Of a stretch of 54,069 nucleotides of DNA, positions 13,448 through 17,453 are shown piece by piece. The notes beneath the pieces were generated by a model. It worked only from the letters and a program-made list of their open reading frames with translations. It searched no databases and was not told the DNA's origin. Location of the stretch: contig JAFGDS010000087.1 in assembly GCA_016931995.1 (NCBI GenBank), positions 1 to 54,069 of the forward strand, given 5' to 3'. Each line of letters starts with the position of its first letter. Positions within the stretch are counted from its first letter, which is position 1. Both the position numbers and the translations under genes were made by a program. The DNA comes from Pirellulales bacterium (lineage in GTDB: Bacteria; Planctomycetota; Planctomycetia; Pirellulales; Thermoguttaceae).

Positions 13448-13476
13448 TTGACAACCGGGCAACCCGGAACGATACT
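13448..13476 (+). promoter_or_regulatory. sigma-70 promoter of riboswitch 1
   Basis: A perfect TTGACA (13448-13453), a 17-base spacer and GATACT (13471-13476). Transcription should start near 13483, just before the riboswitch P1 stem. Confidence 0.8.
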
Positions 13477-13492
13477 CGGGCCTGTTGTGATC

Positions 13493-13686
13493 GTGTCCTG
13501 GTGATCGGCCGTTTCCGTCTTGGAAGGGCCGACGAACAGGGAACTCCGGTGCGATTCCGGGACGGCCCCGCCGCTGTGACAGGGCGAAGGGGGGCTTGCC
13601 ATTTCTCCAGGCCATTGTCGCGCACGGCGCGCGACGAGAAGGCCGGCGAGCCCCGGCTCTGAAGTCAGAAGACCTACCGGGCGCGA
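13493..13686 (+). ncRNA. cobalamin (adenosylcobalamin-type) riboswitch 1
   Basis: The order of conserved blocks is that of the Cbl aptamer. A GGTGATCGGCC stem arm pairs with GGGCCGAC. Then comes ACAGGGAA-CTCCGGTGCGATTCCGGGAC (13536-13563), then CCGCTGTGAC (13571-13580). A variable arm follows (about 13581-13655), and the B12 box AGTCAGAAGACCTACC is at 13663-13678. Spacing and order match the class. It sits in the 5' leader, about 270 bases before the ATG of the PEP-CTERM gene at 13959. The intervening sequence is filled with hairpin repeats, so transcriptional attenuation or translational control cannot be decided by eye. End coordinates are approximate. Confidence 0.92.
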
Positions 13687-13762
13687 CTTGAATTTGCGGG
13701 ACCTCCGCGAGGGACGGAGGCGACGCAGCGCGAAAGCAATTTGTCGGCCACACGGCGCGTGC

Positions 13763-13861
13763 CACTGCTGGCTCGTCCAGCAGTGCGGAAGCCAACCCTG
13801 CGACGGCACGTACACTGCTGGACAAGCCAGCAGTGGCGCCCAATGGGGACAAGCCAGCAGT
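13763..13861. repeat. CACTGCTGG...CCAGCAGTG hairpin cluster in the riboswitch leader
   Basis: Two complete hairpins (13763-13785 with loop CTCGT; 13813-13835 with loop ACAAG) and a third half copy (13848-13861) lie between riboswitch 1 and its gene. The arms are identical, so they are copies of one repeat family inserted into the 5' leader. Confidence 0.8.
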
Positions 13862-13958
13862 GCCCGCACCCAACGGGAACGAGCCGGCGGCGGTGCGCGT
13901 GGTCGCGTATTCGCCTTCGCGCCATCCTGGAACCTCTCTTGAATGAGGAGTGTGAAGC

Positions 13959-15118: not shown

Positions 15119-15134
15119 GGGAAATCGGTGTTCC

Positions 15135-16055
15135 GTGACCAGACTACATGGCGGAGCCGTTGGTGGTTCGCTTGCGCGCGACGGCCGTGCTCGTGGCGGC
15201 GTGGGGCAATCGCGCGGCATGGCCACGCGAGCGTGGCCATGGTACCCCATAAGGCCATGGCGTCCGGTACGGGCGACCGCGGGACGCGGCTTCACGCTGG
15301 TCGAGCTTTTGGTGGTCGTCTCGGTGATCGGGCTGTTGATGACGCTTCTGCTGCCGGCCGTGCAGGCCGCGCGGGAGGCAGCGCAGCGGACCTCGTGCGC
15401 GAACAACCTGCGCCAGATCGGCCTGGGGCTTCTGGCCTACCACGACGCGCAGCGGACGTTTCCGACCGGCTGCACGGAGCACCGCAGCTTCGTCCGCCGG
15501 GGACGGCAACTCGCCTGGTCCGCCCTGCTGTTGCCGTACCTCGAGCAGGAGCCGCTCCACCGTCGATTGGATCTGGGCAAGGCGTTCGACGCCCCCGAGA
15601 ACGCGCGGGCCGCGGCCGCCGTGTTGAGCGTGTACCTTTGCCCCAGCAATCCGCGGGACATCTTCCAGATCCGCGACCGGGGCGTGTGCGATTACGGCGG
15701 CATTTTTGGGCAGCAGTTGACCAACCCCAGCCCCTGGGCCAACGGCGTGATGCTCTACGACCAACCGGTGGCCCTCGACGAGATCGCCGACGGCGCGAGC
15801 CACACGCTCATCGTGTCGGAGGACTGCAACAGCCCGGACATGCAGTGGATCAACGGACTGAACGTCTTCGAGCAAGCCTTTCCGATCAACCGCGCTCCGC
15901 CGGGCGAGAACGAGATGTGCAGCCGACACGCCGGCGGCGGGGCCAACGCGGTTTTGTGCGACGGCGCGGTGCGATTCGTGAGCGAGTCGATCGAGCCGGC
16001 CGCGCTGGCCGCTCTGTGCACGCGCGACGGCGGCGAGCCGGTCGGGGAGTTTTGA
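15135..16055 (+). CDS. DUF1559 pseudopilin-like protein under B12 riboswitch control
   Basis: 306 residues from the GTG, or 278 from the ATG at 15219. The leader GRGFTLVELLVVVSVIGLLMTLLLPAVQAAREAAQR is the type IV prepilin-like N-methylation/TM segment of planctomycete DUF1559 proteins. The C-terminus has SRHAGGGANAVLCDGAVRFVS, the H-x9-DG motif of the family. The GTG is 17 bases after the riboswitch. The ATG at 15219 lies inside a palindromic repeat, which also supplies unusual N-terminal residues (MATRAWPWYPIRPWRP), so the first 48 residues are the least certain part. The function of DUF1559 is unproven; it may form surface filaments or act as a partner of the following gene. Confidence 0.85.
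   Translation: MTRLHGGAVGGSLARDGRARGGVGQSRGMATRAWPWYPIRPWRPVRATAGRGFTLVELLVVVSVIGLLMTLLLPAVQAAREAAQRTSCANNLRQIGLGLLAYHDAQRTFPTGCTEHRSFVRRGRQLAWSALLLPYLEQEPLHRRLDLGKAFDAPENARAAAAVLSVYLCPSNPRDIFQIRDRGVCDYGGIFGQQLTNPSPWANGVMLYDQPVALDEIADGASHTLIVSEDCNSPDMQWINGLNVFEQAFPINRAPPGENEMCSRHAGGGANAVLCDGAVRFVSESIEPAALAALCTRDGGEPVGEF
15218..15241. repeat. CATGGCCACG...CGTGGCCATG repeat inside the pseudopilin N-terminus
   Basis: The palindrome CATGGCCACGCGAGCGTGGCCATG is the same family as 9735-9758. Here it lies in the coding frame just before the prepilin leader and supplies an in-frame ATG. Confidence 0.75.
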
Positions 16056-16073
16056 TAATCGAAAAGGAACACG

Positions 16074-16115
16074 CCTCTCTCCCGCCCGCGGGAGAGGGGT
16101 CGCACGGTGAGGGGA
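16074..16115. repeat. CCTCTCTCCCG-CGGGAGAGGG hairpin repeat
   Basis: Another copy of the CCCTCTCCC family with its GGTGAGGGGA tail, in the gap between the pseudopilin and the propeller gene. Confidence 0.65.
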
Positions 16116-16127
16116 CATCGGAATTCC

Positions 16128-17453
16128 ATGCGACGATTTCTTCACGCACCGTCGTTGATCGCGATTCTCCTGGCGGCGCCGTCGCTCGCCGCGGCGACGA
16201 TCGTCGAGCCGGCGCCGGGCTATCGCGTCGTCGATCAGTTGACCGGCAGCGGCGGCACGGCCGAGGTGTGGCCCGCGGCCATGGCCGTCGTGGATGGGTC
16301 GCTCGTCGCGTTCGAGAACCGCGTGGGGCTCCAGCGGTTCGACCTGACCAGCGGTTCGCTCGAAGAGGATTGGGGCGAGCCGGGCGACGGCTACGCCTAT
16401 TGGTCGGCCAGCTTCGTCACGCCCGAGCCGGATGGATCGGCCTACTGGGTCGGCTTCACGACGCCGCGCAACGCGGACGATCGGATTTACCGCGTCGCGT
16501 GGACGCCCGACGAGGGAGTGAAGTGGGTCCACAAGGCGACGTTGCGCGGGAATTTCGATCTCGAGTTCGACAGTCGCCAGACTGAGAACGAACTGTACGC
16601 GTACGTGTCGGCCAATCCCAGCGCCGCGGGGATATCAAGCCCGCCGGACAACCGGATCTATAGGGCAAACGCGAAAAATGCGTCGTCCGAGGGGAAAGTG
16701 AGTTTCGACGCGATCGTCGACGTGTTGGGCTACTCGGCGGGCTTGGCGGTGGACGCGCGGGGGGACCTCTACTACGGGACGTGGTTCTCGGCCGCCGAGA
16801 GCAACCGGATGTACCGCTTCACGGCCAACGAGATCGCCGCCGCGGCGGCCAGCGGCCAGCCCATCGTGCCCAGCGATGCGGCAAACCGCCTGTTCGACCT
16901 GCAGGTGGGCGCGCTGGACACCGAGGTGGACGACGCGGGCCGGATCGTGTTCGCGTCGGCGGGCAATGAATCGTGGGATGGGTTGGTGGGGCTGGCGGAC
17001 GCGGACCCGGGCGGGTTCAGCCCGGTCGCCGCGACGTGGTCGTGCTACGACCGGCTCGCCGCGCTGGCCGTGTCGGGCGATCTGTCCGGCGCGAGCGGTC
17101 GGGTGTTCGTGGCCGAGTACTTCCAGCCGGGCGTGGCCGAGATCAGCCCTCTGCCGCCCGGCGACGCCAACGGCGATGGGCTGGTCGACAAGGCGGATGC
17201 TTCGATTCTGGCCGCGCATTGGCTGCAAGGGGCGGGCGCGGCCTGGGGCGATGGCGACTTCAACCGCGACGGCGCGGTGGACGACCTGGACCTCGCGATC
17301 CTGGCCGCCAACTGGCAGCCGGGTCCCGGCGGGACCAGCGTGCCCGAGCCAAGCGTCGCCGTCCTTTTGGCTGGGGTGTTGGCGGCTTTGTGGCGCGGCC
17401 GAATGGGTGTCGGTGGCACGGTCCGAGACTGTGATTTTTTGACGACAGGATGA
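16128..17453 (+). CDS. secreted propeller-like protein with dockerin repeats and PEP-CTERM anchor
   Basis: The 441-residue protein starts at ATG 16128, which gives a clean signal peptide (MRRFLHAPSLIAILLAAPSLAAA). Residues about 25-340 are built of repeated beta-blade-like units (AMAVVDGSLVAFEN, SASFVTPEPDGSAYWVGF, RGNFDLEFDSR, SAGLAVDARGDLYYGTW, LDTEVDDAGRIVFAS), which reads as a beta-propeller. Two dockerin-type calcium repeats follow (DANGDGLVDKADASILAAHW, DFNRDGAVDDLDLAILAANW). The C-terminus is VPEPSVAVLLAGVLAALWRGR, a PEP-CTERM signal. It lies 72 bp after the pseudopilin gene in the same riboswitch-controlled unit. A surface propeller induced by B12 shortage suggests a cobamide-binding role like Bacteroides BtuG; this is analogy, not shown homology. 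Confidence 0.82.
   Translation: MRRFLHAPSLIAILLAAPSLAAATIVEPAPGYRVVDQLTGSGGTAEVWPAAMAVVDGSLVAFENRVGLQRFDLTSGSLEEDWGEPGDGYAYWSASFVTPEPDGSAYWVGFTTPRNADDRIYRVAWTPDEGVKWVHKATLRGNFDLEFDSRQTENELYAYVSANPSAAGISSPPDNRIYRANAKNASSEGKVSFDAIVDVLGYSAGLAVDARGDLYYGTWFSAAESNRMYRFTANEIAAAAASGQPIVPSDAANRLFDLQVGALDTEVDDAGRIVFASAGNESWDGLVGLADADPGGFSPVAATWSCYDRLAALAVSGDLSGASGRVFVAEYFQPGVAEISPLPPGDANGDGLVDKADASILAAHWLQGAGAAWGDGDFNRDGAVDDLDLAILAANWQPGPGGTSVPEPSVAVLLAGVLAALWRGRMGVGGTVRDCDFLTTG

Follow-up and report, generated by a model that had tools for sequence, protein, structure and literature searches.

A cobalamin-riboswitch-controlled set of exported proteins with a BtuH-like domain in a planctomycete: a likely surface module for vitamin B12 capture

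Introduction

Surface capture of vitamin B12 is known in detail from gut Bacteroides. In Bacteroides thetaiotaomicron, BtuG is a surface propeller that acts as the lid of the receptor BtuB, and the BtuH domain occurs in BtuH1, in BtuH2 and as the H-domain of BtuG1/BtuGH. BtuH has been described as a protein of gut Bacteroidetes, and BtuH2 binds cyanocobalamin in its C-terminal domain (7biz) through Gln333, Asn399, Phe401, His476, Tyr510, Trp511, Trp577 and Leu578; that domain was reported as lacking known structural homologues (PMC8941943). In BtuG1, a BtuH domain of some 250 residues makes up the C-terminal part, and the structure 8blw belongs to that work (PMC10404256). BtuJ1 and BtuJ2 are DUF4465 (IPR027828) proteins that bind B12 (PMC12751083), as do eight diverse members of the same jelly-roll family (PMC13398666). 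Here we analyze a 54,069-nucleotide contig of a Pirellulales bacterium (JAFGDS010000087.1, assembly GCA_016931995.1; "the window") in which two cobalamin riboswitches precede three genes, P1 to P3, encoding a PEP-CTERM protein, a DUF1559 pseudopilin and a beta-propeller protein.

Most likely, this system works like the BtuG/H/J capture systems and holds a homologue of the BtuH domain, while its anchoring, gene set and pilin partner differ from what is known. P1 shares with BtuH a homologous jelly-roll domain, control by a cobalamin riboswitch and export; it ends in a PEP-CTERM tail, whereas BtuH has a lipoprotein anchor and PKD domains, and it belongs to a planctomycete whose contig carries no TonB receptor. 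BtuJ-type proteins occur in P1-type loci, in planctomycetes as dockerin/PEP-CTERM versions and sometimes fused to the P1 domain, but DUF4465 is absent from the proteins of the window, where the propeller P3 occupies its place in the operon. P3 resembles BtuG in being an exported propeller under a cobalamin riboswitch; it differs in having a generic propeller model and a dockerin with a PEP-CTERM-like tail, and a BtuB partner is not known. P2 has the prepilin N-terminus, DUF1559 body and H-X9-DG motif of other planctomycete DUF1559/SBP_bac_10 pseudopilins, but falls in a separate, riboswitch-linked branch. The DUF1559 family has been termed solute-binding, as its Pfam name says, and the available part of the report does not mention B12 (PMC2754498). 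In another report, PEP-CTERM genes follow cyclic di-GMP (c-di-GMP) riboswitches and cobalamin riboswitches flank synthesis genes; its available part draws no link between PEP-CTERM and cobalamin (PMC12530212). No earlier report of this module was found in the literature that we searched; among the listed papers that use the name BtuH, only four, on Bacteroides or DUF4465, deal with the protein.

Results

Two aptamers stand on the plus strand of the window, at 13482–13694 (RF00174 covariance score 85.6 bits, E 9e-20) and at 14918–15127 (74.8 bits, E 1e-16). Each is matched over the full length of the model (1–189 of 189) and lies far above the Rfam gathering score of 31.5 bits, so that both are complete, as a sequence-only reading of this DNA had proposed; a whole-genome search found no other cobalamin riboswitch in the 5.4 Mb. 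The first precedes P1 (286 amino acids, 13959–14819, +). About 100 nt past P1, the second precedes P2 (15135–16055, +, start uncertain) and then P3 (16128–17453, +). The same reading had placed a TTGACA-N17 promoter of its own before each aptamer. This holds for the first, where a sigma-70-like TTGACA-N17-GATACT (13448–13476, +; 10 of 12 consensus matches) was the single match of a promoter scan over 13150–17700 in which shuffles expect 0.2. For the second, TTGACA is visible by eye at 14883–14888, but the possible promoter that it opens (TTGACA-N17-TACGTT, 14883–14911, +) has a poorly matched -10 and is missing from the scan output. Across 83 riboswitches, 65 had a TTGACA-like hexamer (at most one mismatch) from -60 to +9 relative to the start of the aptamer, compared with 19.6 in simple base shuffles. 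The layout of aptamers, promoters and genes therefore indicates two transcription units, and each seems to have a switch to itself. Between aptamer 1 and P1 the sequence folds more strongly than its own shuffles (z -4.1), and a terminator scan returned none there; after aptamer 2 the folding excess is less clear (z -1.8, with 8 of 200 shuffles equally low). Riboswitches of the cobalamin class usually behave as off-switches. In reporters of B. thetaiotaomicron, B12 represses (PMC12751083).

By fold and by profile, P1 is remotely homologous to the domain with which BtuH binds B12. When a profile of 40 P1-family members was searched against the PDB, the sole match with E < 0.7 was to 393–477 of 8blw chain B (E 0.0013), and this fragment, used as a query, retrieves BtuH2 (7biz, E 1.7e-16). 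The hhalign pair of P1 family and BtuH domain has 40% identity over 35 columns, and the pattern SLG..GG.I...F...I.NS....DF.V.GN of the 8blw–7biz alignment parallels the P1-family consensus SLG.GG.ITLTF..PI.NG.G.DFAVFEN. An AlphaFold2 model of the P1 core (14091–14741; pLDDT 93.9, pTM 0.92) folds as a jelly roll of the discoidin/CBM32 kind. When the best Foldseek chains (984) were re-aligned with VIA, 7biz came first (Z 12.9, root-mean-square deviation 3.3 over 166 residues, chain 318–592), followed by a next row at Z 10.2 and by CBM32 domains at Z about 9. Because the relation is remote, we grade the homology at the sequence level as moderate. Single-sequence searches of P1 or P3 against the PDB gave a dockerin (for P3) and noise only. 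Pfam had no match for the core of the window protein; among the 40 family members it recognized the PEP-CTERM motif in 8, and seven further rows matched one member each, the best at E 0.088. The signal peptide and PEP-CTERM tail of P1 are visible by eye; the tail reaches 17.5 bits with TIGR02595 (cut-off 16), and the Pfam PEP-CTERM model is under its cut-off.

In NCBIfam, P1 homologues were weakly linked to PEP-CTERM subfamilies. Weak matches to the family of the Leptospira lipoprotein LIC_13355 came from 11 of 23 homologues (best E 1.6e-6), and this family may for that reason be related to B12.

P1-type genes are closely tied to cobalamin riboswitches. Among 117 genomes of the order, 109 had an RF00174 match and 28, our own included, a P1 homologue; by coordinate comparison this homologue lies on the same strand and 0.3–3.9 kb downstream of a riboswitch in 27 of the 28. 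The exception, G026, is located at a contig end, as is one of two G114 pieces. A scan of named genomes with the P1-family alignment yielded 554 loci; 80 of them were retained and examined. They span Planctomycetota, Verrucomicrobiota and their kin, Cyanobacteria, Desulfobacterota, Beta- and Gammaproteobacteria, a spirochaete, Sumerlaeota and Methanosarcina. Rfam placed a same-strand cobalamin riboswitch before the gene in 57 of the 80 and, where over 2.5 kb of upstream sequence was available (68 loci), in 56. The P1 family is wider than these counts. Behind riboswitches we also noted divergent P1-like proteins, one at L092 (4701–6548) with GVFSN, by eye, in place of AVFEN, and others with scores of 19–38 at L273, L277, L279, L280, L283, L291 and L300.

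In many relatives the P1 homologue adjoins a DUF4465 protein, often with a dockerin and PEP-CTERM. With a model trimmed to the domain, DUF4465 was found in 45 of the 80 loci, 8 of which have it joined to the P1 domain in a single open frame (the frame of L139 is only partial, at a contig edge), and in 16 of 41 loci of a first set from the order, 2 of them in one frame. Open frames joining DUF4465 and a BtuH-like domain, in either order, occur at L068, L080, L118, L119, L128, L135, L142, L160 and L180, with three DUF4465 copies in those of L180 and L080. The proteins P1 to P3 had no match to PF14717 (DUF4465) up to E 1. A PF01902 protein stands in one P1-type riboswitch locus (L075); the DUF71 branch of PF01902 is tied to B12 salvage. 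A different riboswitch locus of the order, L093, encodes a BtuF-type binding protein (PF01497). By eye, the fused frame of L068 passes through an apparent PEP-CTERM tail and a second signal peptide.

P2 matches DUF1559 (PF07596, E 1.2e-45), with N_methyl and H-X9-DG motifs above cut-offs and a prepilin motif, FTLVELL, from 15291. Pilin-like genes were present in 24 of 30 loci with a P1-type gene in the first set from the order. We also took 40 further riboswitch loci of the order, hand-picked from the remaining plus-strand rows and not by gene content (one, L295, is 494 bases only). DUF1559 lay within 1.2 kb downstream in 31 of them, DUF4465 was present in 13, a weak P1-like protein in 7 and a P3-like protein in 1. 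In a tree of 69 DUF1559 proteins from riboswitch contexts and 30 from our own genome, 58 of the riboswitch-context proteins, P2 among this large group, fall in one branch without any own-genome protein (support 91); of the rest, 7 form another branch (support 100), 3 lie among the background and L160 stands alone. Largely, then, riboswitch-linked DUF1559 proteins form a branch of their own. The tree was built by a quick method, its 30 background proteins are the best-scoring and not a random sample, two long rows (rs_L103 and rs_L097) are unsure, and 35 pilin-like rows from other loci were left out for their low scores (25–84). A length filter removed one short row, L294 judging by its absence from the tree, leaving 134 of 135. 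The model used to detect pilins was built from 19 riboswitch-linked proteins.

The third gene encodes a type I dockerin above cut-off, a signal peptide and a PEP-CTERM-like tail seen by eye, and about 330 residues without a Pfam match. Of the export signals proposed from the sequence, TIGR02595 supports the PEP-CTERM tail of P1 and N_methyl the prepilin motif of P2; the PEP-CTERM-like tail of P3 is recognized by eye only, and TIGR02595 gives no match there. The model of P3 (pLDDT 69, pTM 0.77) has a propeller fold that fits propellers in general; NHL and designed propellers reach Z about 24, and BtuG2 stands at Foldseek rank 27. Because it fits many propellers equally, P3 cannot be called a proven BtuG. 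Nor did the three genes prove to be a conserved unit. DUF4465 replaces P3 in many relatives, and close P3 homologues were found in 3 of the 117 genomes, our own included; the other two are on riboswitch contigs, 1.1 kb (G089) and 5.5 kb (G072) downstream. A P3 profile matched in 25 of 343 genomes of the phylum, and in 20 of the 24 other genomes a same-strand riboswitch stands 0.1–3.1 kb upstream of the match. This arrangement is lacking for the matches of G207, G169, G427 and G349, the last at a contig edge, and for the second copy that G432 carries.

Genes for B12 handling lie elsewhere in the genome, which agrees with the sequence-only observation that no BtuB, FecCD or cob gene is near the module. 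One FecCD permease above cut-off, with an ATP-binding cassette (ABC) ATPase adjoining it by eye, nine TonB plug places and five B12-binding-domain places, one of them in a 1,268-amino-acid frame of MetH size, are all on contigs other than that of the window. Since CbiC was not found in a search of the genome and there are five B12-binding-domain places, the strain is probably a B12 user that imports the cofactor.

Discussion

We think it likely that the window encodes a module that is repressed through cobalamin riboswitches and captures B12 at the cell surface. Such a role had been suggested before these analyses, and the homology of P1 to BtuH, the riboswitch linkage across phyla and the company of, and fusions with, DUF4465 argue for it. 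When intracellular B12 is low, both switches would be relieved, and P1 and, separately, P2 and P3 would be made. P1 would be exported and, probably by the PEP-CTERM/exosortase route, anchored at the surface, where it may bind scarce cobamides with its BtuH-type jelly-roll domain, perhaps together with P3, a putative surface propeller that could serve as a second capture or hand-over protein. P2 would probably help to display the capture proteins or to pass the ligand across the outer membrane. The outer-membrane step would take place via a TonB receptor encoded elsewhere or with the help of the riboswitch-linked pilin, and import across the inner membrane via a FecCD/BtuC-type ABC importer encoded elsewhere. 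The first half of this mechanism is well supported, while we put forward the step of the pilin as a hypothesis.

Several observations weigh against a role in B12 capture. At E 0.001, 89 of the 117 genomes of the order are without a P1 match, though most carry the riboswitch, and 23 of the 80 P1-type loci are without an upstream riboswitch (11 with 2.5 kb or less of upstream sequence, 12 with more). Foldseek alone, applied to the P1 core, returned mostly discoidin-type structures, none with E <= 0.001, and 7biz was not among the best 50. The wider discoidin/CBM32 fold of P1 binds many ligands, and CBM32 domains reach Z about 9. Of the contacts of BtuH2 with B12, only Asn399 could be tentatively mapped; judged from spacing, it is probably the N of FAVFEN. 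Two residues past this N, the P1 of the window has Ser, while most relatives have Phe. Finally, the fold of P3 is generic and its model of moderate confidence only (pLDDT 69).

The P1-type loci differ in whether they carry a pilin-like gene or a TonB receptor. Of the 80, a pilin-like gene is present in 42 and a TonB receptor in 23, with 1 locus having both and 16 neither (Fisher 2e-8), and in 37 of the 42 the pilin-like gene is within 200 nt of the P1-type gene. With phylum groups assigned from record titles, loci of the Planctomycetota–Verrucomicrobiota–Chlamydiota (PVC) group have a pilin in 41 of 49 cases and a TonB receptor in 3 of 49; for Proteobacteria and Desulfobacterota the figures are 0 of 24 and 19 of 24, and the other seven loci have one of each. 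All 10 large genes near P1-type genes that we chose by size encode TonB receptors of BtuB length, 9 outside PVC and 1 verrucomicrobial (L178). This split follows lineage and therefore represents few independent events, being mainly a difference between lineages; among PVC loci alone (49), pilin and TonB receptor exclude each other only weakly, one of the three loci with a TonB receptor having a pilin as well (p 0.07). In addition, 35 of the 42 pilin-like genes score just 25–84 on the DUF1559 model, far under those of the order itself, and of two such genes that were checked L120 has the N_methyl motif and L134 no match at all.

One explanation is that the module captures B12 and that the pilin serves only in secretion or anchoring, as part of a pseudopilus, with uptake via a TonB receptor encoded elsewhere. 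This account is a strong contender that falls just short of being probable. The nine TonB plug places and the FecCD permease on other contigs would provide for it, and a few relatives in the order have a TonB receptor gene placed directly under a cobalamin riboswitch; among the 40 further riboswitch loci, Pfam identified a TonB receptor at L282 and L297, and the model did so at L261, L294 and L298. However, no TonB receptor of our genome is on the riboswitch contig, and the account leaves unexplained both the tight tie between pilin and capture genes and the absence of pilins from all 24 proteobacterial and desulfobacterial loci. Alternatively, a riboswitch-controlled pilin-like protein, made in PVC bacteria with BtuH-, BtuJ- or propeller-type proteins, may replace the TonB receptor BtuB, the (pseudo)pilus carrying B12 across or through the outer membrane. 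We consider this proposal doubtful at present. If the split between pilin and TonB receptor were causal, it would indicate an unrecognized route for a large cofactor.

A more general objection to B12 capture is that P1 to P3 could be ordinary surface or adhesive proteins, such as matrix, pilus or dockerin-scaffold components, whose expression is coupled to B12, for example in a switch of lifestyle, and which do not bind it. PEP-CTERM, dockerin and DUF1559 recur commonly among the surface proteins of these bacteria, our genome has 62 DUF1559 match stretches, P1 belongs to a fold class that binds ligands and glycans in general, and in two deltaproteobacterial loci a c-di-GMP riboswitch separates the cobalamin switch from the DUF4465 gene. 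Yet the best structural match of P1 is specifically a B12-binding domain, its type is accompanied by DUF4465 in more than half of the loci and in other phyla by TonB receptors, and most riboswitch-linked DUF1559 proteins branch apart from the 30 of our own genome; we judge this explanation improbable. That DUF1559, dockerin and PEP-CTERM genes are simply so common in planctomycetes (62 DUF1559 stretches in 5.4 Mb) that riboswitches often adjoin them by chance is contradicted by the counts, namely 31 of 40 riboswitch loci picked without regard to gene content, 58 of 69 proteins in one branch with 0 of 30 from our genome and P1 linkage in 27 of 28 genomes, and can be set aside as having a negligible probability.

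If surface capture of B12 is the function of this module, the BtuH domain would be a widespread B12-capture domain, found in planctomycetes, verrucomicrobia, cyanobacteria, desulfobacteria, betaproteobacteria and a spirochaete. Many proteins annotated as "PEP-CTERM protein" or "DUF1559" would gain a testable function, and P1 to P3 would be candidate parts for the entry of B12 into planctomycetes.

Some further features of these loci were observed. The P1 leader contains two copies of a 23-nt palindrome, jointly forming 25-nt inverted arms (13761–13837, +; 0 expected). The palindrome occurs at these two places in the window and nowhere else in it, and the two copies pair with each other; they may be a mobile or repetitive extragenic palindromic (REP)-like element. 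A second DUF1559 gene of the window, at 33518–34363 (-), is not near a riboswitch. The c-di-GMP switches mentioned above are of the c-di-GMP-I-GGC type and lie at 5003–5078 of L152 and 3538–3615 of L155, between the cobalamin riboswitch and DUF4465/BtuH-like genes, so that each locus holds a tandem of two unlike switches. In other genomes of the order, cobalamin riboswitches precede genes for ribonucleotide reductase-like and MetE-like proteins (L095, by eye; L096, by cluster) or a MetE-like protein alone (L102, by cluster); ribonucleotide reductase and MetE of that kind are the classical B12-independent isozymes.

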